Shown one piece after another: positions 1,929 to 22,888 of a DNA stretch of 31,239 nucleotides (its first letter is position 1; each line of letters begins with the position of its first letter). The stretch covers positions 1 to 31,239 of the forward strand of contig CAAFOY010000075.1 of assembly GCA_900764695.1 (NCBI GenBank), written 5' to 3'. This stretch comes from Lachnospiraceae bacterium (GTDB lineage: Bacteria > Bacillota_A > Clostridia > Lachnospirales > Lachnospiraceae). The notes beneath the pieces are model-generated. The model was not told the DNA's origin, did not search any database, and saw nothing but the letters and a program-made list of their open reading frames with translations. A program made the translations under genes and the position numbers.

Positions 1929-4055
1929 ATGAGACAAAATGTAAAACGAACAATTGCATTTGCTGAAACTGTAGCAATGATTGCAACATTGACAGTAGGA
2001 ATTACATTTGGCAACGCAACACAAGTAAAGGCGGATATAACATCCAGAACAAATAATATTCATATTGATACTTCAATTCCAATTTCGTCTCAGGGTGAAA
2101 CAGTAGGTTATGAATTTACAGTTGAAAAAGATGGGTACTATATGTTGTACACACAGGGAGAGGATGATACATACGGAACTTTGTATGTAAAGGAAGGAAC
2201 AACTTGGAAAGAACTTATCCATGATGATGATGGTGATGACGGCGATTCAAACAACTTTCTTTTAACAGCTACATTATATAAGGATAAAGAATATAAGATA
2301 GATGTTAGAGAATATGATAATAACAATTTTAGCACAGAATTATTTGCAACAGAATATACACCAATAATTAATGGGGTAAATTGTAGTTCTAATGTATATG
2401 CCAGGGTAGGTGATACAGTTGAATTGAAAACATATGCTGAAGATCAATATGGAAATCATATTGAGGATTTAGGAGATCTTGGAATAACATATAGATGGTA
2501 TATGGAAGATGATGAGACAAGTAAAATTGACGAGTTAGGTACCGGAAGTTCTTATACAGTTAACAACGTAACGGAGCATATATTTAATGAAGTTACATAC
2601 AAAGTTGATTGGCGTTATGGCGAATATAATGATACGCTTGAGTTTTATATATATGATATAGAATATTCTTATAAAATTAACTCAGATAATAGTGGCAATA
2701 TATACGCAAGCCAGGGAGAATCTGTTTCATTAAATATTAAAGTTGAAAATTATAAAAAAGAAGAAGTTGACCCGGATGAAGAGGGAATTACTTGTACTTG
2801 GTATAAATGTAATGATGATGAAAGAAAAGAAATAGGAAAAGGAAAAAGCTATACAATTGATAGCGTTGAACAAAATGATTTATATGATGAAGATTCAAAT
2901 ATAAGATATCGTTGTATAATCAAAAAAAATGATAAATTTATTGATGCAACTACATTTTATATTTACGACAGAGTTTATGCATATGAAACACAGAGTATAT
3001 GGATAAGAACAATGGCAGGACAGAGTTGTATACTTGAAGCTAATGTTGCTAATGCAGAAACATATAATGAAGTTAATCCTGCAAATGAAGGAATAACTGT
3101 AAAATGGTATAAGTATACAGGAAAGAGATATTATGATAGTGGCAATGACGATTATTATTATGAATATGGTGATCCTGTGGAAGTTTCTTCAGATGGATTT
3201 ATTTTATTAAACAATTTATCTGAAAAAGATTTTTATAGAAATGGCGATACAAGTACATATTGGACATATGCAATCTATAAAAACGGGAAAAAGATAGATG
3301 AATCAGATGCACATATTAGTAAAGAAGATGCTGATTTTTCAGGTGTTACTGAAATGAAAGTTGTATATGCAAATGAAGGAAGTTCAGCGACACTTGTTCC
3401 GGACGTTTACGAAAATGGAACAAAAGTATCATTTAATAAAAATTATATATGTGAATGGTCAAATGAAAAGGATGAAAATCTTGGAACAAAATTAGTTTAT
3501 GACATAAGTAATGTAACAGCAACTAATATTTATTCATATCAGAATCCTGTTTCCTATTATTGTGATGTTTATAAGGTAAGTTATGATGGAGATGGAGAGT
3601 ATAGAGAGCGTATTGGATATACAAGATTTATTATTGTTAGAGGTAACTCACAGATAAATCAGCCAAATCAACCGAACCAATCAGGTCAGCCAACAACATT
3701 ACCGGGACAGAATAATGTAACAACACCGACAACAAACAATACAGTAGGCAATGCAGCAAAAGATGCAACAATTAAAGAGACAGTTAAAGGAAATGTTTTA
3801 AAAGCCGGTAAAGAAAGTATAAAGATTTCTATTAAGAAAATCGCAAAAGCAAAAGGATATCAGGTACAGGTTTCTACTTCAAAGAAATTTAAAAAGAAAG
3901 TAACAATTACTAAATTAACAAAGAAAAATAGCATTGTTATTAAGAAATTAAAGAAAAAGAAACAGTATTTTGTAAGAACAAGATCATATACAATTGTTAA
4001 AAAGAAAAAGAAATTTGGTAAATGGTCAAAAGTAAAAGCTATTAAAACAAAATAG
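1929..4055 (+). CDS. Secreted PPC/Ig-like repeat surface protein with lysine-rich C-terminal domain
   Basis: No enzyme motif is recognised; this looks like a structural or binding protein on the cell surface. The 708 residues begin with a signal peptide (about 1-35, ending VKA). Next is a PPC-like domain (about 45-140) with a typical DDDGDDGDSNNF acidic loop. Four tandem Ig-like domains of about 100-120 residues follow, starting near 145, 244, 347 and 471, each with a GIT.xWY-type core (the fourth is divergent). A Gln/Pro/Asn/Thr-rich linker (about 574-616) leads to a very lysine-rich Fn3-like domain (about 620-708) ending in a KKFGKWSKVK motif. That last domain recurs in other proteins of this window. 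There is no LPXTG or transmembrane anchor, so retention by charge binding to wall polymers is a possibility (inference). A GGGAG ribosome binding site precedes the ATG, and the gene has its own promoter and terminator, so it is probably monocistronic. Confidence 0.85.
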   Translation: MRQNVKRTIAFAETVAMIATLTVGITFGNATQVKADITSRTNNIHIDTSIPISSQGETVGYEFTVEKDGYYMLYTQGEDDTYGTLYVKEGTTWKELIHDDDGDDGDSNNFLLTATLYKDKEYKIDVREYDNNNFSTELFATEYTPIINGVNCSSNVYARVGDTVELKTYAEDQYGNHIEDLGDLGITYRWYMEDDETSKIDELGTGSSYTVNNVTEHIFNEVTYKVDWRYGEYNDTLEFYIYDIEYSYKINSDNSGNIYASQGESVSLNIKVENYKKEEVDPDEEGITCTWYKCNDDERKEIGKGKSYTIDSVEQNDLYDEDSNIRYRCIIKKNDKFIDATTFYIYDRVYAYETQSIWIRTMAGQSCILEANVANAETYNEVNPANEGITVKWYKYTGKRYYDSGNDDYYYEYGDPVEVSSDGFILLNNLSEKDFYRNGDTSTYWTYAIYKNGKKIDESDAHISKEDADFSGVTEMKVVYANEGSSATLVPDVYENGTKVSFNKNYICEWSNEKDENLGTKLVYDISNVTATNIYSYQNPVSYYCDVYKVSYDGDGEYRERIGYTRFIIVRGNSQINQPNQPNQSGQPTTLPGQNNVTTPTTNNTVGNAAKDATIKETVKGNVLKAGKESIKISIKKIAKAKGYQVQVSTSKKFKKKVTITKLTKKNSIVIKKLKKKKQYFVRTRSYTIVKKKKKFGKWSKVKAIKTK

Positions 4056-4882: not shown

Positions 4883-6460
4883 ATGTACGATACTGTAGCA
4901 TATATATACAAGGATTATCGAATTGAATTTAAAGAAGAAGGGTATCATGTGTACGGAGAGGCTTTTTATCCGGGAGAAGTTTTGCCGGTTGGAACAATTA
5001 CAGGACATTCATATAACTCTAAAGACGAAAATGATATTTCACATATGAAAGACAATTCACTTCATATTGATATGCTTATTGTAAGTGAAAAGCATAATGG
5101 AAAAGGGGTAGGTTCAACCCTTATGAAGATGATGATGTTGTATGTTGAAAAAAGAAAATTTAAACATGTTACTACGAATCCAACTCCGATAGATGGGAGA
5201 ACTACAAAGCAGTTGGAAAAGTTTTATCATAAATTTCATTTTAGCACAGGTATTATGATAAAACGAATTGAATTTGTAGATGACAAGGATATGTTTGAGT
5301 TAGATAGTGACGAGAATAGTGAGGAAGAATTTGAGACTCAGAAGATAAAAAATATTAACCACGATGTAGAAAAAGCCGTAAGTTCACAGAAGTCCGGAAG
5401 TTATCAGGAGGAAGAAGTTATTGAAGGACTTCAGCCTGTTGAAAAAATTGAACTTAAAGAAAACATACAGGCAGCGCTTAGAGTATTAGACGAGGAAGCT
5501 CATAAAATAGAAATGAAAAAAGTTATGCTTGAAGAGATATCTAATGCGAACGGAATAGAAGAATCTTTATATGAGTTAGAACAGGATGTTGAATTAAAGC
5601 AAGAAGCTACTAATAAAAGAACGGCTTCTGATAATGTTAAAATATCTTTAAAACAAGATGACAATAAGAAAAAACAGGAACTAAAGACTGAATGCAAGAT
5701 AAGCGATAAATTGGAAGATGATTTTACTAAAGAGGGAAAAGACGATTATGCAGAGCATTTAAAAGAAAAAACGGGCTCAGAGGAAAAGGCAGCTTCACAA
5801 GTTAACCATATTCCGAATTCTTACAATATTGGTATATTGACAACGATCTATTATGTAGAGGAAAGATTGCCAAAGAAGAGCGATATTCTTGATATAAGCT
5901 CAAGATTTGTAGCAAAGAAAGCTTATTTTGAACAGAAAGGTCACAAAGTTACTTCTGTTAATTCCATAGATTTAACAGAATTTAATGATGAGAGTTTTGA
6001 TGTTGTACTTGCAGTTGAACCTATGGATAAATTAAAGACAAAAGAAGAACAGGTGTCATTTCTTAAAGAAGCATACAGAGTGTGTAAAGTAGGCGGAAGA
6101 GTTTTCGTTTCATTTACTTCTAATGATATGATGCTTGCAAATGAAATTTTAAATTACGATCCTGATTTTCTTAAATCTGAAAATGTAGACAAGAAAACAA
6201 TGAAGATTCTTCATGGAAGTAAAACTACATTTACCATAGATGAGATGGAAGATGTAATTCATTCAAGCGGAATGGAATTTACAAATAGATTTGCCATGGA
6301 TGGAATAGGTTCTATGATGACTGAACAAATTGATGCAATGAATGATAGTCAGTTTAATAAATGGATGAGTTATCATTTATATACGTGTGAGAAAGAACAT
6401 GGAATAGGATACAGTTCATCAATTGTTTATATAATTAAGAAGATAGACTTAAGTGTTTAG
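4883..6460 (+). CDS. GNAT acetyltransferase fused to a degenerate class I methyltransferase-like domain
   Basis: The substrate is unknown. Residues 1-135 form a GNAT domain with the acetyl-CoA loop HNGKGVG at 71-77 following a LIV beta-strand. Residues about 140-310 are a highly charged Glu/Lys-rich linker, probably coiled coil. Residues about 315-525 resemble class I SAM methyltransferases of the kind that end in YHLxTCE...IG. DVVLAVEP (from 373), the VGGRVFVSF strand and YHLYTCEKEHGIG are all present. Motif I, normally a D-L-G-x-G-x-G glycine loop, reads DISSRFV at 337-343, so the SAM-binding glycines are missing. The C-terminal half may therefore be non-catalytic or bind another ligand. 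The ATG at 4883 has an AAGGAG site 8-9 bp upstream. The gene stands alone. Confidence 0.75.
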   Translation: MYDTVAYIYKDYRIEFKEEGYHVYGEAFYPGEVLPVGTITGHSYNSKDENDISHMKDNSLHIDMLIVSEKHNGKGVGSTLMKMMMLYVEKRKFKHVTTNPTPIDGRTTKQLEKFYHKFHFSTGIMIKRIEFVDDKDMFELDSDENSEEEFETQKIKNINHDVEKAVSSQKSGSYQEEEVIEGLQPVEKIELKENIQAALRVLDEEAHKIEMKKVMLEEISNANGIEESLYELEQDVELKQEATNKRTASDNVKISLKQDDNKKKQELKTECKISDKLEDDFTKEGKDDYAEHLKEKTGSEEKAASQVNHIPNSYNIGILTTIYYVEERLPKKSDILDISSRFVAKKAYFEQKGHKVTSVNSIDLTEFNDESFDVVLAVEPMDKLKTKEEQVSFLKEAYRVCKVGGRVFVSFTSNDMMLANEILNYDPDFLKSENVDKKTMKILHGSKTTFTIDEMEDVIHSSGMEFTNRFAMDGIGSMMTEQIDAMNDSQFNKWMSYHLYTCEKEHGIGYSSSIVYIIKKIDLSV

Positions 6461-6547: not shown

Positions 6548-6743
6548 CGAGGTAAAAGTATCAACATCAAAGAAATTTGCTAAAAAGACAACAAAAACAG
6601 TAGATGCAAAGAAGTTATCTGTTACAGTTAAAAAGTTACAACCAAATAAAAAATATTTTGCAAAAGTAAGAGCGTATGTTATCGTTAATGGAACAAAAGT
6701 ATATGGCAAATATTCAAAGGCTGTAAAGATTAAGTTAAAGTAA
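6534..6743 (+). pseudogene. Remnant of a lysine-rich Fn3-like C-terminal domain
   Basis: A 69-residue frame opens at a GTG with an in-frame TAA immediately upstream and no ribosome binding site. From about residue 6 it matches the second half of the domain that ends the proteins at 1929-4055, 21686-22888 and 26022-29990: STSKKFAKK near the start, KKYFAKVRAY in the middle and YGKYSKAVKIK at the end. The first strand of the domain, a signal peptide and any upstream modules are missing. It is best read as the 3' fragment of a lost secreted-protein gene; its own terminator follows at 6804. Confidence 0.7.
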
Positions 6744-6871: not shown

Positions 6872-6909
6872 TTGCAAGATTATGATAAAAATAGTGTATA
6901 AGTTAATGT
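6872..6909 (+). promoter_or_regulatory. ECF-type promoter-like motif upstream of the sigma gene
   Basis: TTGCAAG (6872-6878), 15 bp, GTGTATAAGT (6894-6903), then ATGT at 6906-6909. The same elements with the same spacing lie upstream of acpP at 7817-7854. As a sigma-A promoter the spacer to TATAAG would be 19 bp, which is long. As an ECF promoter, TGCAA-type -35 and GTGTA-type -10 boxes about 15-16 bp apart are plausible. This suggests autoregulation (inference). Confidence 0.55.
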
Positions 6910-6939
6910 ACGTACAAAATCCTTAAGGAGAACAAAGAA

Positions 6940-7509
6940 GTGACAGATGAAAGAATTTTAAAGTTGCTGATAAATAAAGACGAAAAAGCTCTTTATAAAT
7001 TATCAGGAAAATATGACAAGTTACTTAGTTACATTATTTCAAATATTGTGGGAAACAGACCGGAAGATGTAGAAGAATGCCTGAATGATACTTATTTTAA
7101 GGTATGGAAAAATGCACATAAAATCGATTTGAAAAAAGCATCACTTAAGACATATTTAAAATATGTAGCAAGAAATACGGCGATTAACAGAATAAGAGAT
7201 TTAAGCAAAGATGAAATAATGCTTGAACATGGGGACGCGGAAGAAATGCTTAAAAATTATGTTTCCATAAGCAAAGGACCTGAAGACAGGGCAATGATTG
7301 AAGAAGATGTAAATTTGCTTAAAAATATATTAGATGATTTAAAACCAAGAGAAAAAGAATTGGTTATTAGAAAATATTTTTACATACAGAGTTCCAAAGT
7401 GATAGCGCAGGAAATGAATATGGAAGTTACTACGGTAGATTCATATTTATCAAGGCTTAGAAAGAAAATGAAAAAGGAATTCCAGAGGAGAGAAGAAAGT
7501 TATGAGTAA
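6940..7509 (+). CDS. ECF-like sigma-70 family RNA polymerase sigma factor
   Basis: The 189-residue protein has only the two core regions of an extracytoplasmic-function type sigma factor. Region 2 (about residues 20-88) contains DVEECLNDTYFKVWKN and a YLKYVARNTAINRIR recognition helix. Region 4 (about 125-183) contains LKPREKELVIRKYF and a helix-turn-helix VTTVDSYLSRLRKKM. The start is GTG at 6940 with an AAGGAG site 9 bp upstream. Its stop overlaps the start of the next gene by 8 bp, so the two are translationally coupled, as sigma/anti-sigma pairs often are. The fatty-acid operon begins about 140 bp after that pair, under a matching promoter motif. I infer that this factor controls membrane lipid synthesis, perhaps in response to an envelope signal. 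The exact ECF subgroup is not assigned. Confidence 0.9.
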   Translation: MTDERILKLLINKDEKALYKLSGKYDKLLSYIISNIVGNRPEDVEECLNDTYFKVWKNAHKIDLKKASLKTYLKYVARNTAINRIRDLSKDEIMLEHGDAEEMLKNYVSISKGPEDRAMIEEDVNLLKNILDDLKPREKELVIRKYFYIQSSKVIAQEMNMEVTTVDSYLSRLRKKMKKEFQRREESYE

Positions 7510-7762
7510 TCCAATAATTGAAAATGCGATTTTTGAAAGCAAGTTAATTGATTTATTTAGTAAAATAGATATAAGTGAAGTTGAAACAGATTATCCGGAC
7601 GAAGATATTGAAAAGCTAAAATTTGAAGAAACACTACTTGAAAAATGGTGGAATAACAAGAAAGTAAGAAGAGTTACTGAAGTGGGTGTGCTTGCGGCAT
7701 CCCTTACAACAGGAATAATTGTTGCAATCAGAGTTATTCACAAAAAGCGAAAGGCTGCATAA
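7502..7762 (+). CDS. Small one-helix membrane protein, candidate anti-sigma factor
   Basis: The 86-residue product has an acidic cytoplasmic N-terminal segment (about 1-45, rich in Asp/Glu), a positively charged KWWNNKKVRR stretch, one predicted transmembrane helix (about 60-79) and a short KKRK tail. It shows no zinc-binding HxxxCxxC motif, so it is not a standard ZAS anti-sigma factor. The ATG at 7502 overlaps the sigma gene by 8 bp, and an AGAGGAG site lies inside that gene. Position and topology make it the natural partner that could hold the sigma factor at the membrane, but no known anti-sigma family is recognised. Confidence 0.7.
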   Translation: MSNPIIENAIFESKLIDLFSKIDISEVETDYPDEDIEKLKFEETLLEKWWNNKKVRRVTEVGVLAASLTTGIIVAIRVIHKKRKAA

Positions 7763-7816
7763 CAGTGAATCAATAAGATATTAAAAAAATAAAAAAAATA
7801 AAATTTTGCAAAAAAA

Positions 7817-7854
7817 TTGCAAGGTTTTATTTTTTTTTGTGTATAAGTATATGT
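7817..7854 (+). promoter_or_regulatory. ECF-type promoter-like motif upstream of the FASII operon
   Basis: TTGCAAG (7817-7823), 15 bp, GTGTATAAGT (7839-7848), ATGT at 7851-7854. It is identical in its boxes and spacing to the motif upstream of the sigma gene. A second TTGCA lies just upstream at about 7806-7810. The predicted leader to the acpP ATG is about 45 nt. Confidence 0.55.
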
Positions 7855-7898: not shown

Positions 7899-8129
7899 AT
7901 GGTAGAAAAGATTATTGAATTAGCAAAAGAAAATTTAAGCATTGATGGAGAAATTACAGCAACAAGTTCTTTCAAAGAAGATTTGGAAGTAGATTCATTA
8001 GACTTAATGGAATTAGTTATGGCATTAGAAGATGAATTTAATGTAGAAATTCCATCAGAAGAATTACAGAATATCAAGACAGTTCAGGATGTTGCTGACT
8101 ATTTAACATCAAAAGGCGTGGAGGCATAA
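7899..8129 (+). CDS. acpP: Acyl carrier protein
   Basis: ACP carries growing acyl chains on a 4'-phosphopantetheine arm in type II fatty acid synthesis. The 76-residue acidic protein has the standard four-helix ACP length and the DSLDLMEL motif, with Ser33 as the attachment site, followed by the recognition helix residues ELVMALEDEF. The frame is open farther upstream, but the ATG at 7899 is chosen because it has an AGAGG site 8 bp upstream and gives the normal ACP length. It is the first gene of the FASII/Acc operon; fabK starts directly after its stop. Confidence 0.95.
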   Translation: MVEKIIELAKENLSIDGEITATSSFKEDLEVDSLDLMELVMALEDEFNVEIPSEELQNIKTVQDVADYLTSKGVEA

Positions 8130-9053
8130 ATGAAAACAAGAATAACAGAATTGCTTAAAATTAAGCATCCTATTATTCAGGGAGGTATGGCATGGGTAGC
8201 TGACCATCATTTGGCAGCTGCTGTGTCAAATGCCGGCGGACTTGGAATTATAGGTGCGGCAAATGCTCCAGCAGAAGTAGTTAGAGAGGAAATAAGAAAG
8301 ACAAGAGAATTAACAGATAAGCCTTTTGGGGTAAATGTAATGCTTCTTAGTCCATCAGCAGATGAAGTTGCAAAAGTAGTTGTTGAAGAAAAAGTTCCCG
8401 TAGTTACAACAGGTGCAGGAAATCCTGAAAAATATATGGAAATGTGGAAAGAAGCGGGAATAACTGTTATTCCGGTTATTGCTTCTGTAGCGATGGCAAG
8501 AAGATTAGAAAGAACCGGAGTTGACGCGGTTATCGCAGAAGGATGTGAATCAGGCGGCCATATTGGTGAATCAACTTCAATGACTTTAATACCACAGGTA
8601 GCTGATGCGATAGAAATTCCTGTAATTGGAGCAGGTGGCGTAGGCGATGGAAGAGGCATGGCAGCAATGTTTATGTTAGGTGCTGAAGGAATTCAGGCAG
8701 GTACATGTTTCTTAGTGGCAAACGAAACAAATATTCATGAAAATTATAAAAATAAAGTTTTAAAGGCAAAAGATATTGACTCGGTTGTAACAGGAAGAAG
8801 CCATGGACATCCGGCACGTTCATTAAGAAATAATATGACAAGACAATATGTAAAAATGGAAAATGAAGGTGCAGGATTTGAAGAATTAGAATATCTCACA
8901 TTAGGCTCGCTTAGAAAGGCAGTGCAAGATGGAGATACACAGAATGGCTCTTTTATGGCAGGACAGATAGCAGGACTTATACACGAAACGAAAAGCTGCA
9001 AAGAAATAATTGAAGAAATGGAAAATCAGGCAGAAAAACTTTTGAAATTATAA
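8130..9053 (+). CDS. fabK: Enoyl-[acyl-carrier-protein] reductase II (FMN-dependent)
   Basis: FabK reduces the trans-2-enoyl-ACP double bond with NAD(P)H through FMN, the last step of each elongation cycle. The 307-residue TIM-barrel protein starts with the family opening KHPIIQGGMAWVAD and has a GGLGIIGAANAP FMN-binding loop. ESGGHIGE places the conserved active-site histidine at 144, and GAGGVGDGRG follows. The length is typical. The ATG abuts the acpP stop (TAAATG), with GGAGG-like sequence inside the acpP end. It replaces FabI, which is absent here; FabK enzymes are insensitive to triclosan-type FabI inhibitors. Confidence 0.95.
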   Translation: MKTRITELLKIKHPIIQGGMAWVADHHLAAAVSNAGGLGIIGAANAPAEVVREEIRKTRELTDKPFGVNVMLLSPSADEVAKVVVEEKVPVVTTGAGNPEKYMEMWKEAGITVIPVIASVAMARRLERTGVDAVIAEGCESGGHIGESTSMTLIPQVADAIEIPVIGAGGVGDGRGMAAMFMLGAEGIQAGTCFLVANETNIHENYKNKVLKAKDIDSVVTGRSHGHPARSLRNNMTRQYVKMENEGAGFEELEYLTLGSLRKAVQDGDTQNGSFMAGQIAGLIHETKSCKEIIEEMENQAEKLLKL

Positions 9054-9143
9054 AAAATTAATTGGAATTTTTTGAACAAAAAAATAAAAGTAAGTGTGTA
9101 TCAAATAAAAAACATGAATTATAACTCAAAGTTAGGAGGAAAC

Positions 9144-10070
9144 ATGGGAAAGACGGCATTTATTTTTCCGGGACAAGGTGCTCAGTATTTTGGAATGGGA
9201 AAAGATTTTTTTGATAAATATGAAGACAGTAAAAAATACTTTGAAGAAGCAACGAAGATTCTTGGATTTGATATGGAAAAGATGTGCTTTGAAGAAAATG
9301 AAGATTTAAACAATACACAGTATACACAGGCAGCAATGTTTACAGTATGCGCAGCAATTTTACAACAGATTGAAAAAACAGGAGTAAAGCCTGACGTGTG
9401 TGCAGGATTAAGTCTTGGAGAATATGCAGCCCTTTATTCATGCGGAACAATTACATTTGAGGATGCGGTTTATCTCCTAAGAAAAAGAGGAATGTTTATG
9501 GATGAAGAAGTTCCGGATGGTAAAGGAACAATGGCAGCAGTGCTTGGAATGGATGCAGATAAAATTGATGATATTTGCAAAAATACAGAAGGAGAAGTGG
9601 CAGTTGCAAATTATAATTGTCCGGGTCAGATTGTTATAACAGGTGAAACTGATGCAGTAGAGAAAGCTTCAAAAACTTTAGCAGAAAATGGAGCAAAGAG
9701 AGTTTTGCCACTTAAGGTAAGCGGACCATTTCACTCTGCCATGCTAAAAGGGGCAGGAGAGAAGCTGGAAAAAGAATTGAAAAATATTGAGCTTAAAGAA
9801 CTTAAAATGCCGTATGTGGCAAATTGTAATGCAAGTTACATATATGATAATTCACAAATAAAAGAACTTCTAAAAAAACAGATTTCAGCACCTGTAAAAT
9901 TTATGCAGAGTGTTGAAAAAATGATAGATGATGGAGTTGATACATTTGTTGAAATAGGACCGGGGAAAACACTTTCTAAATTTGTTAAAAAAATCAATAA
10001 AGATGTAACGGTAATAAATATTGAAAAAGTGGATGATTTAGAAAAACTGAAAGGATTAGAAATATGTTAA
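9144..10070 (+). CDS. fabD: Malonyl-CoA:ACP transacylase
   Basis: FabD transfers malonyl from CoA to ACP. The 308-residue protein opens with [12 protein letters not shown]. It carries the nucleophile elbow GLSLGEY (Ser90), the catalytic histidine in GPFHSAM (His197), and the C-terminal [11 protein letters not shown] motif. The frame can be extended upstream to a TTG at 9072, but the ATG at 9144 has a perfect AGGAGG site 4-5 bp upstream and gives the usual N-terminus. Its end overlaps the fabG start by 7 bp, indicating translational coupling. Confidence 0.96.
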
Positions 10071-10804
10071 GTAATAAAGTAGCAATTGTTACAGGAGCTT
10101 CCAGAGGAATAGGCGCTAAGGTGGCAAAGACATTTGCTGAAAATAACGCAGTTGTAATAGTAAATTATGCAGGCTCTAAGGAAAAGGCAGAAAATGTTGT
10201 TGACGAAATTATTAAATCAGGGGGAAAAGCAGAAGCTTATAAATGCAATGTAGCCTCATTTGATGAAGTAAAAGAAATGATGGAATATGTTGTAAAAACT
10301 TATGGAAGAATAGACATTCTTGTAAACAATGCAGGGATTACAAAAGATAATCTTTTGCTCAGAATGTCAGAACAGGAATTTGACGATGTAATAGATGTTA
10401 ATTTAAAAGGAACATTTAATTGTATGAAAAATGTAACAAGACAAATGATGCGACAAAAAAACGGAAGGATAATTAACATGTCTTCAGTAGTTGGAGTTCA
10501 TGGAAATGCAGGACAATTAAATTACAGTGCTTCAAAAGCAGGAATAATAGGAATGACTAAATCGCTTGCAAAAGAAATGGCTTCCAGAAATATAACTGTA
10601 AATGCAATTGCACCCGGATTTATTGAAACTGATATGACGGGTCAGCTGGATGAAAATGTGAAGAAACAGATTTTATCAGGAATTCCGGCTAATTGTCTTG
10701 GAAATGTAAATGATATTGCACAGACGGCGCTGTTTTTGGCATCTGATGGAGCAAGATATATTACAGGACAGGTTATCGGAGTAGATGGAGGTATGGGAAT
10801 TTGA
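10064..10804 (+). CDS. fabG: 3-oxoacyl-[acyl-carrier-protein] reductase
   Basis: FabG reduces beta-ketoacyl-ACP with NADPH. The 246-residue short-chain dehydrogenase has the cofactor motif TGASRGIG (10-17), the NNAG motif (88-91), and the catalytic Ser141, Tyr154 and Lys158 in the SSVVG and YSASK motifs. The C-terminal end [12 protein letters not shown] is the FabG signature. The start overlaps fabD and the stop overlaps the TTG start of fabF, so translation is tightly linked. Confidence 0.96.
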
Positions 10805-12036
10805 AACGAAGAGTAGTAGTAACCGGATTAGGAATAATATCACCAATTGGTAATGACATAGATACATTTTGGGAAAATGTGAAAAAAGGAACAGTAGGAA
10901 TCGGAGAGATAACAAAATTTGATACTACGGATTTTAAGGTAAAACTTGCAGCAGAAGTTAAAGATTTTGATGCTACAAAATATATGGATAAGCGCGAAGC
11001 AAGAAGAATGGAATTGTTTTCTCAGTATGCAGTAGCAGCGGCAAAACAGGCAGTTGAAGATTCAGGGCTTGATTTGGAAAAAACAGATAAAAACAGAATG
11101 GGTGTTTCTATAGGCTCAGGAGTTGGAAGCTTGCAGGCGATGGAAAGAGAACATAAAAAGTTACTTGAAAAAGGACCGGGAAGAATTAGCCCGATGTTAG
11201 TTCCGATGATGATTACAAATATGGCAGCAGGAAATGTGGCAATTCAGTTTGGCTGTAAAGGCAAGTGTTTAAACATCGTAACTGCATGTGCAACAGGAAC
11301 ACATTCGATAGGAGAAGCATTCAGATACATTCAGTATGGCGATGCAGATATTATGCTTGCAGGTGGAACGGAAGCATCAGTTTGCCCAATAGGAGTGGGC
11401 GGATTTTCAGCACTTACAGCACTTTCAACACAGGAAAATCCTTTAAGAGCTTCAATCCCATTTGACAAAGAAAGAAGTGGATTTGTTATGGGTGAGGGTG
11501 CAGGAGTTGTTGTATTAGAAGAATACGAGCATGCAATAAAGCGCGGAGCAAAGATATATGGTGAAGTTGCAGGATATGGAGCAACATGTGATGCATTTCA
11601 CATTACATCACCTGCCGAAGATGGTGAAGGTGCAGCAAGGGCTATGATGCTTGCGATGGAAGATGGAAATGTAAAACCTGAGCAGGTTGAGTATATAAAT
11701 GCACATGGAACAAGTACACATCATAATGATTTATTTGAAACAATGGCAATTAAAAAAGCATTTGGTGATAAAGCATATGATTTAAATGTAAATTCAACAA
11801 AGTCGATGGTAGGTCATATGTTAGGTGCAGCAGGGGCTGTGGAATTTATCGTATGTATCAAATCGGTTATGGAAGATTACATCCATAAAACAGCAGGCTT
11901 TAAAGTAAAAGATGAAGAATTGGATTTGAATTACACACCTGAGGCTGTTAATAGAAAAGTAAATTATGCCATAAGTAATTCGTTAGGTTTTGGTGGACAT
12001 AACGGCAGCATAATGGTTAAAAAATTTGAAGCATAA
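10801..12036 (+). CDS. fabF: 3-oxoacyl-[acyl-carrier-protein] synthase II
   Basis: FabF condenses malonyl-ACP with acyl-ACP during chain elongation. The 411-residue thiolase-fold enzyme begins [10 protein letters not shown] and carries the Cys-His-His triad at Cys163 (TACATG), His302 (NAHGTST) and His339 (VGHMLGAAG), plus the GFGGHNGS C-terminal loop. The start is TTG at 10801, overlapping the fabG TGA (TTGA), with GGAGGT about 10 bp upstream. No fabH gene for initiation is found in the window, so initiation must be encoded elsewhere or handled differently. Confidence 0.96.
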
Positions 12037-12080
12037 TAGCTGAAAAAATAAATGATTATGATTATGAAAAGGAAATTAAA

Positions 12081-12530
12081 ATGAATTATGAGCAAATAGA
12101 AAAACTGATAGATAAGGTTAATAAATCAAAAATAACAGAATTATCAGTTGAAGAAGGAAATTTTAAATTAAATATAAAGGCAGAACAGAGTGTGGCATTG
12201 GCAGCTTTAACAGTTCCAGGCAATTTGCCTGATGCAAATGTAGAAACTATTAGAACTGTGGGCGTGAATGAAAATGAAGGACAAAGTGATGATTTAGAAG
12301 AAATAAAAAGTCCTTTGGTTGGAACGTTTTATGCGGCAAGAGCTGAGGGGGAAGAACCGTTTATTAAGGTGGGAGACAAAATAAAAAAAGGTCAAACAAT
12401 AGGAATCATTGAAGCCATGAAACTAATGAATGAAATTAGTGCAACATGTGATGGCGTAGTTGAAGAGATTCTGGTTGAAAATGAAGATTTAGTAGAGTAT
12501 GGACAGGTAATCGTAAAAGTTAGCAAATAA
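12081..12530 (+). CDS. accB: Biotin carboxyl carrier protein of acetyl-CoA carboxylase
   Basis: BCCP carries carboxybiotin between the carboxylase and transcarboxylase parts of acetyl-CoA carboxylase. The 149-residue protein has an N-terminal helical segment, a short mobile linker (about 40-75) and the C-terminal biotinyl domain with EAMKLMNE, where Lys114 is the biotinylation site. An AAGGA site precedes the ATG. The remaining carboxylase genes accC, accD and accA follow after fabZ. Confidence 0.96.
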   Translation: MNYEQIEKLIDKVNKSKITELSVEEGNFKLNIKAEQSVALAALTVPGNLPDANVETIRTVGVNENEGQSDDLEEIKSPLVGTFYAARAEGEEPFIKVGDKIKKGQTIGIIEAMKLMNEISATCDGVVEEILVENEDLVEYGQVIVKVSK

Positions 12531-12636
12531 GAAAATGTATTAATTAGAAGATTAGAAAAGTGAAGAATCGCTTTATAGAAATAATGAATCTTAAATGCTA
12601 AAAAAGTTGCGCATTTGCAACAGAATGGAGATTAAT

Positions 12637-13059
12637 ATGTTAAACACAAAGGAAATAATGGATATAATTCCTCACAGACAGCCGTTTTTACTTGTAGACA
12701 GAATAGAAGAAATGGAAGTAGGAAAGAGAGCAGTAGGAATTAAATGTGTAAGCTATAATGAACCGTTTTTTGCAGGACATTTTCCGGATCAGCCTGTAAT
12801 GCCTGGAGTGCTTATTATTGAAGCAATGGCACAGGTAGGAGCTGTCAGTTTATTATCAGACGATAAATATAAAGGAAAAACTCCTTTGTTTGGTGGAATT
12901 AAAAACGCTAAATTTAGAAGAAAAGTTGTTCCGGGAGATGTGCTTAGAATGGAAGTGGAAATGACTAGAGTGCGTGGACCACTTGGTATAGGTGAAGGAA
13001 AAGCGTATGTGGATGGTGAACTTTGCGCACAGGCAGAACTTGTATTTGCAATACAGTGA
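12637..13059 (+). CDS. fabZ: 3-hydroxyacyl-[acyl-carrier-protein] dehydratase
   Basis: FabZ dehydrates beta-hydroxyacyl-ACP to the enoyl form. The 140-residue hotdog-fold protein has the N-terminal [13 protein letters not shown] motif, the catalytic His48 in [12 protein letters not shown] and the catalytic Glu62 in IEAMAQ. The frame is open upstream to 12595, but ATG 12637 has a TGGAG site 6 bp before it and gives the standard FabZ length. The gap of about 100 bp after accB shows no terminator. Confidence 0.95.
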
Positions 13060-13089
13060 AAATGTTGTTAGTCGAAAAGGAGAAAGTAG

Positions 13090-14436
13090 ATGTTTGAAAA
13101 AATTCTAATAGCAAATCGAGGCGAAATCGCTGTTCGAATAATAAGAGCTTGTAGAGAAATGGGAATTCAAACAGTGGCAGTTTGCTCAGAAGTAGATAAA
13201 GATGCACTTCATGCACAACTTGCGGATGAATGTGTGTGTATTGGTTCTTATAAATCAAAAGATAGTTATTTAAATATAGAAAAAATATTAAGTGCAGCAA
13301 TTGCTACAAAGGCAGATGCGATACATCCTGGATTTGGTTTTTTATCAGAAAACAGCAAATTTGCAAAAATATGTAATGAATGCAATATAGAATTTATCGG
13401 GCCTTCAGTAGAAAGTATGATAAATATGGGAAATAAATCTATAGCAAGACAAACTATGATTAAAGCAGGAGTACCTGTAGTTCCGGGAACAAATGAGCCT
13501 CTTACAGATGCTTATCAGGGAAAGAAAATAGCTGACGAAATAGGTTATCCGGTAATAGTAAAAGCAGTTTCAGGCGGTGGCGGAAAAGGTATGAGGGAAG
13601 TAAGAAAAAGCGAAGATTTTGTAAAATTATTTGAAACTGCAAAAAAAGAAACAGAAATTGCCTTTGGTGATGACCAGATGTATATAGAAAAATTTGTGGA
13701 AAATGCAAGACATATCGAATTTCAGATTATAGGGGACAAATTTGGAAATGTATTACAACTAGGAGAGCGAGATTGCAGTATTCAAAGAAGACATCAGAAG
13801 TTAGTTGAAGAAACTCCTTCGGTTGTTTTAAAAGAAGAAGTAAGAAAGAAAATGGGAGAAGCGGCAATTAAAGCCGCAAAGGCTGCAAAATATTACAGTG
13901 CAGGAACAATAGAATTTTTGCTTGATAAAGATGGTGAACATTTTTATTTCATGGAAATGAATACAAGAATTCAGGTAGAACATCCTGTGACAGAAATGGT
14001 GACAGGAGTTGATTTGATAAAAGAAATGATAATGGTAGCAGCAGGTGAAAAACTTACAATGACACAGAACGATGTAAAACATTCGGGATGTGCAATAGAG
14101 TGTCGAATAAATGCAGAAGACCCTGACAATCATTTTATCCCATGCCCAGGTACCGTAAATGAACTTCATTTCCCGGGAGGAAATGGAATACGGGTAGATT
14201 CCGCATTGTTTCACGGGTACAAAATTCCTTCGTGTTACGACTCGATGGTGGCAAAAATAATAGTTCACGGCCACGACAGAAAAGAGGCCATTGAGAAAAT
14301 GAGAAGTGCGCTAGGGGAAGTTGTAATTGATGGGATAAAAACGAATTTAGATTTACAGTATGAAATTATTAATTCAAATGAATTTGCCAAAGGGAATGCA
14401 CTGGAAATCAACAGACGTTTGGATGATAGAGGTTAA
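13090..14436 (+). CDS. accC: Acetyl-CoA carboxylase, biotin carboxylase subunit
   Basis: AccC carboxylates the biotin of BCCP using ATP and bicarbonate. The 448-residue protein has the N-terminal ILIANRGEIAVRI motif, the ATP-grasp glycine loop GGGGKGM starting at residue 162, the RDCSIQRRHQK segment and the EMNTRIQVEHPVTE catalytic region. The length is normal. An AAAGGAG site precedes the ATG at 13090, 30 bp after fabZ. Confidence 0.97.
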   Translation: MFEKILIANRGEIAVRIIRACREMGIQTVAVCSEVDKDALHAQLADECVCIGSYKSKDSYLNIEKILSAAIATKADAIHPGFGFLSENSKFAKICNECNIEFIGPSVESMINMGNKSIARQTMIKAGVPVVPGTNEPLTDAYQGKKIADEIGYPVIVKAVSGGGGKGMREVRKSEDFVKLFETAKKETEIAFGDDQMYIEKFVENARHIEFQIIGDKFGNVLQLGERDCSIQRRHQKLVEETPSVVLKEEVRKKMGEAAIKAAKAAKYYSAGTIEFLLDKDGEHFYFMEMNTRIQVEHPVTEMVTGVDLIKEMIMVAAGEKLTMTQNDVKHSGCAIECRINAEDPDNHFIPCPGTVNELHFPGGNGIRVDSALFHGYKIPSCYDSMVAKIIVHGHDRKEAIEKMRSALGEVVIDGIKTNLDLQYEIINSNEFAKGNALEINRRLDDRG

Positions 14437-14549
14437 AAATCATTGCAATGAATAGTCATGTGCTAAAGACAATAAAAATTATGATGCCCGGGGATAGAGA
14501 TAAAAATGGGTTGTAAAAATATGGATGCTTTGAAATCAGAGGTTAAAAA

Positions 14550-15386
14550 ATGTTAAAAGAAATGTTGAAAAAAACTCCAAAAAGAATAGTAAAGAATGAA
14601 AGCAGCAAATCAAATGTTCCTGATGGAATGTTTATGCGCTGCCCTAAATGTAAAGAAATAATCTATTCTGAGGATTTAGTGTCAAATAAATATGTATGCC
14701 CTAAATGCGAACATTATTTCAGAATTAATGCAAAGCAAAGAATAGAAATGGTGTTAGACAAAGGGAGCTTTGAGGAATGGCACAAAGATATTACAACGGA
14801 TAATCCGCTAAATTTTCCAAATTATATAGAAAAAATTGAAAAAACAAAAAAGATTACAGGACTCGATGAGGCTGTAATAACAGGTAAAGGAAAAATAAAA
14901 GGAAAGGACGTTGCAATCGGAGTAATGTCTGCGGATTTCATAATGGGAAGTATGGGAAGCGTAGTAGGAGAAAGAATTACAAGATTATTTGAGAAAGCAA
15001 CTGAAGAAAAATTACCGGTTGTTATGTTTTGCTGTTCAGGTGGAGCCCGTATGCAGGAAGGCACAGTGTCTCTTATGCAAATGGCAAAAACGAGCCAGGC
15101 AGTTAAAAGACATGATGAAGCAGGACTTTTATATGTTTCAGTATTAACTGACCCAACAACAGGAGGGGTTACGGCGAGTTTTGCAATGCTTGGAGATGTA
15201 ATAATTGCTGAACCGGGAGCATTGATTGGTTTTGCCGGACAAAGAGTAATTGAGCAGACAATTCATCAGAAACTCCCTGAAGGATTTCAACGGGCAGAAT
15301 TTTTATTGAAACACGGATTTATAGATAAAATTGTGACTAGAACAAGATTGAAGAAAACATTGGAATTTCTTATTTTATCTAATTAA
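14550..15386 (+). CDS. accD: Acetyl-CoA carboxylase, carboxyltransferase beta subunit
   Basis: AccD forms, with AccA, the carboxyltransferase that makes malonyl-CoA. The 278-residue protein has the N-terminal C4 zinc ribbon (Cys31, Cys34, Cys50, Cys53). The crotonase-like core follows, with [25 protein letters not shown] and [14 protein letters not shown], and the end has [10 protein letters not shown]. The ATG at 14550 is preceded by AGAGG. The 113-bp gap after accC has no terminator. Confidence 0.96.
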
Positions 15387-15407
15387 GCAAAGCGAAAGGG
15401 CATAGAA

Positions 15408-16199
15408 ATGGAACAAATACTTACGCCATGGGAGCGCGTTAAAATAGCCAGAGATAAAGACAGACCATATAGTTTTGATTATATAAATGAAATATTTGAC
15501 AGATTTTTAGAATTACATGGTGACAGATTTTATGGAGATGACGGAGCAATTGTAGGTGGAATTGGTGAAATCAATGGCAGCTATTTTACGATAATAGCTC
15601 AGCAAAAAGGAAGAAATGTAAAACAGAATATTACCAGAAATTTTGGTATGCCATCGCCTGAAGGATACAGAAAAGGAATCAGACTTATGAAGCAGGCAGA
15701 AAAATTTAACCGCCCAATTATTTGCTTTGTAGACACGCCGGGAGCATATCCGGGAATTGAGGCAGAGGAAAGAGGACAGGGAGAAGCGATTGCAAAAAGT
15801 ATATTTGAAATGTCAGGACTAAAAGTTCCGGTTCTTACAATAGTTATAGGCGAAGGAGGAAGCGGAGGAGCTTTGGCAAATGCAGTGGCAAATAAAGTTT
15901 TAATGCTTGAGAATGCAATGTATTCAATACTTTCTCCTGAAGGATTTGCAACAATTCTTTGGAAAGACGGTTCAAGAGCGGATGAAGCTGCAAGCGTGAT
16001 GAAATGCACATCTCATAAATTGCTTGAACTAGGTATAATTGATGGGATTATTGAAGAAGAACAGCAGGCATCACTTGAAAATGTAGATATAATAGCTGAA
16101 GAAATAAAAAAAGAAATTTTAAAGTTTGCTGATGAGTACAAAGACAAAAATCCTGAATATATCAGAAATCAAAGATATGAAAGATTCAGGCAAATGTAA
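15408..16199 (+). CDS. accA: Acetyl-CoA carboxylase, carboxyltransferase alpha subunit
   Basis: This is the partner of AccD in the carboxyltransferase. The 263-residue protein opens with [15 protein letters not shown]. It contains [16 protein letters not shown], the [10 protein letters not shown] segment, [10 protein letters not shown] and the oxyanion-hole region [10 protein letters not shown]. It is somewhat shorter than the E. coli enzyme, as is normal in Firmicutes with a truncated N-terminus. It begins 21 bp after accD with an AAAGGG ribosome binding site. Confidence 0.96.
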
Positions 16200-16328: not shown

Positions 16329-17495
16329 ATGAAATCATTAAAAATTGGAGAATTAGAGGCAAAAATTCCACTCATTCAAGGTGGAATGGGCGTTGGAATA
16401 AGTCTTTCAGGACTTGCCGGGGCAGTGGCGCTTGAGGGAGGAATAGGTGTAATAAGCACGGCACAAATAGGTTATAAAGAGCCTGACTGGGATAGAAATC
16501 CGATAGAAGCAAATTTGAGGGCAATAAAAAAAGAAGTAAAGAAAGCAAAAGAAATCAGTCATGGTGGAATAATTGCGACGAATATAATGGTTGCGACAAA
16601 ATTTTATGATAAATATGTTAAAGCTGCAATCGATGCAGGCGTTGATATGATAATATCCGGAGCCGGACTTCCACTCAATTTGCCTGAACTTGCAAGGAAA
16701 AGTAAAGTGAAATTAGCACCGATAGTTTCATCTAAAAAGGCTGCGCAAATTATATTTAGAAGATGGGAGAGAAATTATAACACGACTCCTGATTGCGTAA
16801 TAGTTGAAGGACCAAATGCCGGTGGACATTTAGGATTTAAACCGGATGAAATTGAACAATATAATGCATGCCGAAATGACGAACCAGAAAATACAGACAA
16901 GTATAATAAAACAGAAACGAATAATATAAATGTATGCCGGAAAGCAAATTCTGTTAATTTAGAATTTGATAATAGGGCAAAAACAAAATTATACTCAGAT
17001 GAAATAAAAGATATTATAGATTTTGTACACACATATGAAGAAAAATGTGAAAAAGATATTCCGGTTGTTGTTGCAGGAGGGATATATGATAAAGCGGATG
17101 CAGATTGTATATTCGAATTAGGTGCATCAGGAATTCAGGTGGCAACTCCATTTGTCGCCACAAAAGAATGTGATGCCCATGAAAATTACAAGATGGCATA
17201 TGTGAATTGTAAAAAAGATGATATTGAAATAATAAAAAGTCCGGTTGGAATGCCAGCAAGAGCAATAAACAACAAATTTCTTAAAAGGGTTAAGAAAGAG
17301 GGGAGAATTGCACCTATAAAATGTCATCAATGTGTATCTACATGCAACATGTTAGAGACACCTTATTGTATCACGGATGCTTTGATAAATGCCGTAAGTG
17401 GAAATGTTGATGAAGGCTTAATATTTTGTGGAGCGTATGCATATAAAATTAACGATATATCAACAGTAAAAGATATTATAAAAAATTACTTTTAA
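16329..17495 (+). CDS. FabK/nitronate monooxygenase-family flavoprotein
   Basis: This is a second FMN TIM-barrel protein of the 2-nitropropane dioxygenase/FabK superfamily, 388 residues. It shows IPLIQGGMGVGIS near the N-terminus, GVISTAQIGY, and AGGHLG with the likely active-site His167. The C-terminal Cys-rich CHQCVSTC...YC...LIFCGAYA signature is typical of clostridial members next to lipid genes. Residues about 178-226 are a polar Asn/Asp/Lys-rich insertion that looks low-complexity. The role is uncertain: an alternative enoyl reductase, or detoxification of nitronates or related compounds. An ATG with a GGAGAT site is used. It closes the operon; no strong terminator follows, only a weak GTTAAAA/TTTTAAC pair at 17519-17563. 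Confidence 0.85.
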   Translation: MKSLKIGELEAKIPLIQGGMGVGISLSGLAGAVALEGGIGVISTAQIGYKEPDWDRNPIEANLRAIKKEVKKAKEISHGGIIATNIMVATKFYDKYVKAAIDAGVDMIISGAGLPLNLPELARKSKVKLAPIVSSKKAAQIIFRRWERNYNTTPDCVIVEGPNAGGHLGFKPDEIEQYNACRNDEPENTDKYNKTETNNINVCRKANSVNLEFDNRAKTKLYSDEIKDIIDFVHTYEEKCEKDIPVVVAGGIYDKADADCIFELGASGIQVATPFVATKECDAHENYKMAYVNCKKDDIEIIKSPVGMPARAINNKFLKRVKKEGRIAPIKCHQCVSTCNMLETPYCITDALINAVSGNVDEGLIFCGAYAYKINDISTVKDIIKNYF

Positions 17496-21655: not shown

Positions 21656-21685
21656 TATAATAAAATAAATAATTTGAGGGAAGAA

Positions 21686-22888
21686 ATGAAGAAAAGAATA
21701 TATTCAATAATTATAGCTGTGGTGCTTATGCTTTCGTCTATAGCAGCACCTACCAAAGTATCAGCGTTAGAAATTCCATACAGAGTAGATGTAACAAAAT
21801 ATACATCAGACGAAGCAAATGCCTCAGCGCAAATTAGAGAACAGGTAAAGGCACACGCAAATACAGTAACAGTATATGTAAGAACAAAAGACAAAGATTT
21901 GTATGCAGTATTTAATCGAATATGGAATAATGCATTTGCAGAAACTACAAATCCGGACGAAGGAGATTATTTATATTGGCAAATGTCAAGCATGGCAGCA
22001 AGCTACAACGCCCTTATGCGTAAAGAGAAGGGAAACAATACATATTATACAAAATACACAATTAATGTAGATTACTTTATTTCTTTAGAACAGGAACAGA
22101 TGTTGACACAAGAATTAAATATAATAAATGAGAGTTTTGGTTTCACGGAAACAACAACAGATTATGAAAAAGTAAAAACTATCTATGATTATATTTGCCA
22201 CAATGTAACATATGATTACAGCGATAACAATATGAAATTTACGGCTTATGCAGCAGTGACTACAGGTAAATCAGTATGTCAGGGATATGCAACTCTGTTT
22301 TACAGATTGGCAAAAATGCAGGGGATTTCATCCAGAGTGATAGCAGGCCATGGAACAAATACAGATGTATATCACGGATGGAATATAGTTAAACTGGGAA
22401 ATCTGTATTACAATGTGGATGCAACATGGGATGCGGCAAATTATAATCATGGGCATGCTTATGAATATTTTCTAAAGGGAGATGTATTTGAAGACCATAC
22501 ACGAAATGACGATTACAAGACCAAAAGTTTTTATGCTACATATCCTATGGCTGCAGATGATTATGTAGAAGGAGTTGAAGCTGTTGCATCGGCTGAAACA
22601 GTTAATTCAACATTTACAATGAATAAAACATCAATTAAGAAACTGACAAGAAAAAAAATCAGTTTTAATAAAATTGCAGAAGCGACAGGATATGAAATTC
22701 AATATTCGACAAATAAAAAATTTGCCTCAAAGAAAAAAATGACAACAACAAAGACAACATGCAAATTTAGAAAATTAAGTAAAAAGAAAACATATTATTT
22801 TAGAGTACGTGGTTACAGAGAAGCAGGTAGTGGCAAAATATACACTAAATGGTCGACAGTTAAAAAAATAAAGAAAATAAAGAAATAA
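21686..22888 (+). CDS. Secreted transglutaminase-like protein with lysine-rich Fn3-like C-terminal domain
   Basis: Members of this fold include cysteine proteases and transglutaminase-like enzymes on the cell surface; the substrate is unknown. The product has 400 residues from the ATG at 21686, which has a GAGGG site; an upstream TTG at 21674 is less likely. It has a signal peptide (about 1-27, ending VSA), a helical region (30-150), and a transglutaminase core with a complete triad: Cys198 in KSVCQGYA, His230 in YHGWN and Asp245 in YNVDATWD. The last 85 residues (about 314-400) form the same lysine-rich Fn3-like domain that ends the proteins at 1929-4055 and 26022-29990. No sortase signal is present. 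It may share a transcript with the upstream TPR gene. Confidence 0.9.
   Translation: MKKRIYSIIIAVVLMLSSIAAPTKVSALEIPYRVDVTKYTSDEANASAQIREQVKAHANTVTVYVRTKDKDLYAVFNRIWNNAFAETTNPDEGDYLYWQMSSMAASYNALMRKEKGNNTYYTKYTINVDYFISLEQEQMLTQELNIINESFGFTETTTDYEKVKTIYDYICHNVTYDYSDNNMKFTAYAAVTTGKSVCQGYATLFYRLAKMQGISSRVIAGHGTNTDVYHGWNIVKLGNLYYNVDATWDAANYNHGHAYEYFLKGDVFEDHTRNDDYKTKSFYATYPMAADDYVEGVEAVASAETVNSTFTMNKTSIKKLTRKKISFNKIAEATGYEIQYSTNKKFASKKKMTTTKTTCKFRKLSKKKTYYFRVRGYREAGSGKIYTKWSTVKKIKKIKK

Follow-up and report, generated by a model that had tools for sequence, protein, structure and literature searches.

An ECF-type sigma factor and a conserved promoter-like box at the head of fatty-acid synthesis genes in Lachnospiraceae

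The window, i.e. the whole 31,239-nucleotide stretch of DNA from a Lachnospiraceae bacterium that was analysed, very probably encodes an ECF sigma factor that is dedicated to fatty-acid and membrane-lipid synthesis, that controls its own gene through a paired promoter box, and that is most likely held inactive by a partner protein. This reading is built from sequence, in which the conservation of the box, its position, the genes that it precedes and its co-occurrence with the sigma factor gene can be followed directly.

Results

The sigma factor gene lies at 6940..7509 on the + strand and encodes a protein of 189 aa with a GTG start. Its only sigma-70 domains are regions 2 and 4, both above their cut-offs (Pfam Sigma70_r2, 2.8e-11; Sigma70_r4_2, 4.3e-9), which, together with a match to the sigma70-ECF model TIGR02937 (4.3e-24; 85 bits with a cut-off of 42.9), places it among the ECF factors. 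The SigW equivalog model NF007223 gave 39.4 bits, far below its cut-off of 209. The structure model of the protein is all-helical (pLDDT 82, pTM 0.48) and is weak at 92-98, between both domains. The next gene (7502..7762, +), of which the start overlaps the end of the sigma factor gene by 8 bases, encodes a membrane protein of 86 aa with a single C-terminal hydrophobic stretch, a candidate anti-sigma factor. It is followed by acpP for the acyl carrier protein (7899..8129, +; PP-binding, 1.4e-16; TIGR00517, 79.2 bits with a cut-off of 70.45) and by fabK, fabD, fabG, fabF, accB, fabZ, accC, accD and accA (8130..16199, +), where fabD to accA each exceed their NCBIfam equivalog cut-offs and fabK was called from its NMO domain (5.6e-77), the name being assigned by reading. 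These domain and equivalog assignments match the order of sigma factor, small membrane protein and FASII/Acc genes given in the original prediction, and the fab-acc order is also found in relatives. No fabH is present within the operon of the window, and there is no MarR-like ORF between the sigma factor gene and acpP. A second FabK-like gene lies at 16329..17495 (+; 125 bits with the FabK model, below the cut-off of 453), relatives of which are found unlinked, and with a box of their own, in G002, G004, G011 and G039.

Elsewhere in the window, the ORF at 4883-6460 joins an N-terminal acetyltransferase domain to a C-terminal methyltransferase domain, and a stop-terminated fragment at 6561-6743 (VSTSKKFAKK...KIKLK, by eye) resembles the C-terminal ends of the ORFs at 1929-4055, 21674-22888 and 26022-29990. 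Lying just before the sigma factor gene, this fragment is perhaps the relic of a surface-protein gene.

The motif TTGCAAG-N15-GTGTATAAGT occurs exactly twice in the window, at 6872-6903 (+) and 7817-7848 (+), with equal spacing, and had no matches in 100 dinucleotide shuffles of the window, which bears out the two copies, the coordinates and the identical spacing that had been claimed. With a matrix of the sigma-upstream boxes, the copies score 31.2 and 32.1 (the first being part of the training set and the second lying outside it), and the next best site of the window scores 7.6. The single box GTGTATAAGT was rejected as a signal, because by itself it occurs at chance rate (37 matches with <=2 mismatches, against 36.6 expected); a third exact copy is found at 8975 on the - strand. 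The first predicted promoter box (6872..6908, +) precedes the sigma factor gene and the operon, with a -35 element TTGCAAG at 6872-6878, a -10 element TGTATA at 6895-6900 and a putative start at G 6908. The second (7817..7853, +) precedes acpP, with a putative start at G 7853, and has counterparts before acpP in L013 and G065:C32.

Across 43 aligned sites, T2, A5, A6, G7, G25, T26 and A27 are invariant, whilst G3 and T28 are found in 42, C4, G23 and A29 in 40 and T32 in 38; at some of the sites, several of these columns were set in advance by the patterns used in the search. The alignment combines sites found by position with sites found by pattern, and excludes the weak fabH site of G186 as well as L009, of which the box repeats that of L007. 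The trailing N2-ATGT of the original prediction is not preserved as such in relatives; preserved instead is a purine at box position 37 (42 of the 43 sites). This purine, the fixed spacing and an A/T-rich stretch upstream of the aligned boxes give the site its promoter-like look, and when it is read as TGCAAG-N16-TGTATA, with a predicted start after a 7-base gap, it is laid out like an ECF promoter. The spacing (N16) equals that of the SigW consensus, TGAAAC-N16-CGTA. The sigma-A consensus, on the other hand, fits the box poorly, and the box was not reported by a promoter scan. Sigma-A-type matches before the sigma factor gene or acpP of the window (+ strand) are only of 9-of-12 quality, and the number of such matches on both strands of the window was 7, versus 8.8 expected in shuffles. 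Sigma-A-like sequences were seen by eye near the sigma factor gene or acpP in some relatives, and control by the sigma factor may therefore be partial.

Protein searches gave 42 relatives of the sigma factor. Of the loci found in genome contigs with a profile from a 15-sequence alignment, the best 80 of 584 confirmed ones were examined; among these, the 15 closest are 38-52% identical, are mostly labelled Lachnospiraceae and have FASII genes directly downstream in 14 cases, the fifteenth ending at a contig edge. The DNA surrounding the other 65 of the best 80 loci (<=35% identity) contained no FASII match, bar one acpP-like match on the opposite strand (L016). In the family of Anaerocolumna AGMB13025 (G011), where at most 8 candidates were scored per genome, 11 of 397 genomes have an ortholog (E <=4e-73, with the next match at 4e-42); all 11 adjoin FASII genes and 3 were already among the earlier relatives. 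A class-wide sample gave an ortholog in one of 391 genomes, namely the query's own. The combination of this sigma factor with FASII is therefore restricted in distribution. Wherever contigs are long enough, the sigma factor gene stands directly before FASII genes (22 of 22 relatives), and a midpoint-rooted tree of 110 sequences places all 26 ortholog tips (including the window, counting three genomes twice and excluding the truncated L015) in a single clade with a support of 0.973.

Upstream of the sigma factor gene, the box is present at fixed internal spacing in all 24 distinct orthologs (the window and 23 genomes), which gives each of them a -35/-10-type promoter layout of its own, presumably read by the sigma factor itself. 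A matrix trained on 23 sigma-upstream sites gave leave-one-out scores of 17.8-32.8, compared to at most 14.6 for the stretches upstream of 84 paralogous sigma genes, and a relaxed box pattern had no matches in 722,046 bases around those 84 genes. A separate box before acpP occurs in three genomes only (the window, L013 and G065, where acpP-fabK are apart from the sigma factor gene). The claim that the box is conserved before both genes thus stands for the sigma factor gene and holds only partly for acpP, since most relatives are without a separate acpP box; in the latter, acpP may be transcribed from the sigma promoter.

FabH was found (E up to 1e-40) in 10 of the 23 sigma-bearing genomes as well as in 22 of the 28 genomes that lack a sigma ortholog. 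These 28 are a non-random sample (the first in the family list, of which 20 had no match and 8 had paralog-level matches only, at E 3.0e-29 to 5.4e-16). Scored with the sigma-trained matrix, the ten unlinked fabH stretches of the sigma-bearing genomes reached 26.9, 26.6, 26.3, 23.4, 23.0, 21.1, 21.1, 20.3, 17.0 and 8.6, against at most 12.3 for their shuffles. The unlinked fabH is hence boxed clearly in nine of these ten genomes (17.0-26.9, six of the ten sites coming from one close group, so that related genomes are not independent) and weakly in one (G186), where the score of 8.6 exceeds that of its own shuffles (5.6) and is still weak. None of the 22 fabH stretches from sigma-lacking genomes is boxed, all scoring -1.2 or less, where the shuffles of that group reach 14.6; these stretches derive from 25 fabH loci in 22 genomes (two being without a gene start and two being pieces of one gene), and two of them measure only 185 and 110 bases. 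No selection was involved in the list of fabH genes itself, although seven of the ten sites had been met earlier in pattern searches, those of G195, G255 and G186 emerging first from the fabH comparison. The box before all 24 sigma orthologs, and a fabH box that tracks the presence of the sigma factor gene, support the proposal that the sigma factor may activate both itself and FASII. In a quick first look at the same E-value limit, no FabH was found in 13 of the 23 sigma-bearing genomes, one of which is G011 with 6.8 Mb.

Genome-wide, the exact pattern gave 46 matches in the 23 sigma-bearing genomes versus 11 for a reversed-pattern control. These precede the sigma factor gene (19), fabH (8), FabK-like genes (3; G002, G011, G039), acpP (2; G013, G065) and DegV/FakB-type genes (2; G001, G070), or lie elsewhere (12), i.e. 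34 stand before sigma or lipid genes and the remaining 12 are at about control level. These 12 off-target matches also differ from the 43 aligned sites in form, with T9 in 3 of 12 versus 35 of 43, G23 in 5 versus 40 and T32 in 5 versus 38; the purine at position 37 is present in 9 of them as well. Weaker boxes precede fabV (G012), a diacylglycerol-kinase-type gene (G005), a FabK-like gene (G004, placed by tblastn) and fabH (G255). An earlier 2-mismatch pattern gave 43 matches versus 18 for the control in the sigma-bearing genomes, and 8 versus 23 in the 28 sigma-lacking ones, where all 8 lie inside ORFs of >=80 aa. Of these chance matches within coding sequence, three score 18.4, 21.8 and 22.9, so that a high matrix score is by itself no proof of a site. 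Among the matches listed for the first, loose 2-mismatch pattern, most were background and not above control, and tighter patterns were used afterwards; box matches within genes that looked by eye like dapF, malate dehydrogenase and others were taken as chance. The FASII loci of sigma-lacking genomes contained no box scoring >=12 in 181,969 bases (20 stretches, one of 1,156 bases).

Two further loci deserve a description. In L165 (G006:C294), a faint box-like sequence lies ~310 bases before an Asp23-type ORF, which is followed by a DAK2/FakA-type fatty-acid-kinase-like ORF (by eye), and this locus is possibly another target. In the 1.7-Mb genome G012 (L108, L154, L012), a FabV-type enoyl reductase gene and fabH are both boxed, and the 6.7 kb around the sigma factor gene gave no acpP or fabK match.

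Directly after the sigma factor gene, all 23 loci have an ORF of 66-178 aa with a C-terminal hydrophobic stretch, which starts within ~160 bases of the sigma factor gene and overlaps it in some loci. As these ORFs and their start codons were chosen by script (i.e. the most hydrophobic ORF after the sigma factor gene), the hydrophobic stretch is there partly by construction, which is not the case for the recurring N-terminal segment, approximately LIDMxSxLDxSLLExxxxExDL. The middle of the protein is highly variable, and only E28 and D35 are invariant in an alignment of 13 sequences. A protein search with the 86-aa protein gave 14 relatives, all close, while Pfam and NCBIfam gave no match and no anti-sigma family. 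Its structure model, of low confidence (pLDDT 65, pTM 0.23), has a helix at 4-20 and a long helix at 33-85. Part of the class I anti-sigma domains carry a zinc motif, Hx3Cx2C, which the 86-aa protein lacks, having one histidine (in the C-terminal tail) and no cysteine, whereas anti-sigma factors of class II (CnrY-like) bind sigma domains 2 and 4 with short helices. The protein would fit a minimal, tail-anchored anti-sigma factor. In the class II pair CnrY-CnrH, CnrY is a very short anti-sigma factor, according to the available part of PMC7406223; the 86-aa protein differs from it in having no family match, in a hydrophobic stretch that reaches almost to the last residues of the C-terminus, and in the pathway concerned, which is lipid synthesis.

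With regard to other regulators, the model NF003359 (PRK04424), which we take to represent FapR, was above its cut-off in none of 33 relatives, 23 of them sigma-bearing, with weak partial matches in two (G014, G255); of 14 controls, five gave matches (B. subtilis among these), one of them above the cut-off. The predicted absence of a FapR-type regulator is thus upheld, at this cut-off, for the 23 sigma-bearing relatives. In the stretches of <=3 kb before the sigma factor gene, no regulator is common to all 14 loci and the ORFs differ. A MarR-like ORF (by eye), found ~160-650 bases before the sigma factor gene in L014 and in this relative only, could possibly be a FabT-like second regulator, and an XRE-like ORF (by eye) precedes the sigma factor gene in L002 and L011. 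Before the FASII genes in the 20 stretches of sigma-lacking genomes, MarR-like (L244), MerR-like (L245), PadR-like (L250) and TetR-like (L253) ORFs were seen by eye, and were dismissed as none of them recurs.

Discussion

What we infer from these observations is which factor reads the box, where transcription starts, that the small protein acts as an anti-sigma factor, and which signal is involved. The sigma factor (6940-7509) would recognise TTGCAAG-N15-GTGTATA, read as TGCAAG-N16-TGTATA, and would transcribe its own gene, as well as the acpP-fab-acc genes from the same and from the second promoter, while in relatives it would also read the promoters of unlinked fabH, FabK-like, fabV, DegV/FakB and lipid-kinase genes. 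The partner protein would most likely use its short N-terminal segment to keep the sigma factor at the membrane in an inactive state, and would release it when more lipid is needed. Since the partner, anchored by its tail, would have next to no domain beyond the membrane, the bilayer itself (its packing, thickness or charge) would be the signal, perceived via one transmembrane helix; positive control of FASII by a self-activating, dedicated ECF sigma factor with such an input is put forward tentatively.

Alternatively, another DNA-binding regulator might use the paired box as an operator that overlaps ordinary sigma-A promoters, with the sigma factor lying nearby but serving a different purpose. 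The -10 part does resemble TATAA, and FapR and FabT, which regulate fatty-acid and phospholipid genes globally in Gram-positive bacteria, are both described as repressors in the available part of PMC5052256, whereas the system of the window would, in the reading proposed here, activate. However, the pair is non-palindromic, its spacing is constant and it is followed by a start-like purine; moreover, the poor sigma-A match and the silent promoter scan, the tracking of the sigma factor gene by the fabH box, and the lack of a regulator recurring in all 14 loci upstream of the sigma factor gene (the MarR-like ORF of L014 being confined to that locus) all argue against an operator, which is accordingly considered very unlikely.

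Two other explanations leave the sigma factor as the reader of the box. In one of them the small protein is not an anti-sigma factor, instead serving as a membrane anchor for the sigma factor or FASII enzymes, or as an accessory of lipid synthesis. The lack of a known anti-sigma domain, and of practically anything outside the membrane, makes this conceivable, although short of probable, as its constant place after the sigma factor gene (23 of 23) and its recurring N-terminal segment correspond to the usual anti-sigma arrangement. In the other, which is rather unlikely, the sigma factor modulates FASII only to a minor extent, comparable to SigW on fabHa-fabF, and most of the transcription is carried out by sigma-A. 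In favour of this, the sigma factor gene is present in only 11 of the 397 sampled family genomes although FASII is generally essential, and sigma-A-like sequences lie near some relatives' genes (by eye), but no clear sigma-A promoter precedes the sigma factor gene or acpP of the window, and the above-control matches precede lipid genes and not envelope-stress genes.

ECF control of FASII has precedents, and it is a self-controlled, FASII-embedded and pathway-dedicated sigma regulon that seems to be new. In Pseudomonas aeruginosa, overexpression of the ECF sigma factor SigX raises enzymes of all FAS steps, and a SigX-induced operon led by fabH3 contains PA14_21550, a putative ECF sigma gene, together with a putative anti-sigma gene; PA14_21550 is not responsible for FAS induction there (PMC3875570, in the part available). 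This operon is an earlier example of an ECF pair located next to a FAS gene. SigX itself is not described in that part as heading a FASII operon, whereas the sigma factor of the window precedes the main FASII set and has its box in common with scattered lipid genes. In Bacillus subtilis, SigW has one promoter inside the FapR-controlled fabHa-fabF operon, and absence of sigW has no effect on fabHa without stress (PMC3498285, in the part available); this is likewise an ECF promoter acting on FASII, but a single and internal one. Unlike SigX and SigW, the present system thus combines a sigma factor gene before the main FASII set, a box shared with lipid genes and an unusual small membrane partner. 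In the literature as far as it was accessible, work on SigX and SigW was found and no sigma factor of a FASII operon, nor an account of FASII control in Lachnospiraceae, and it is possible that this sigma factor belongs to an existing ECF group. The main text of a start-site paper on C. phytofermentans (PMC5171806), in the part available, contains no 'TTGCAAG', 'ECF' or 'fatty acid'. The ortholog from this species that was seen here is that of strain KNHs2131 (L001), whereas the start-site map concerns strain ISDg.

Conclusions

The sigma factor, its predicted promoters and the candidate anti-sigma factor form a compact set that is testable in one strain. In many bacteria FASII is essential, and the pathway is a target for drugs. 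Control by a dedicated sigma factor with a defined set of promoters would add a third logic to those of FapR and FabT, and could couple the state of the membrane directly to lipid synthesis.
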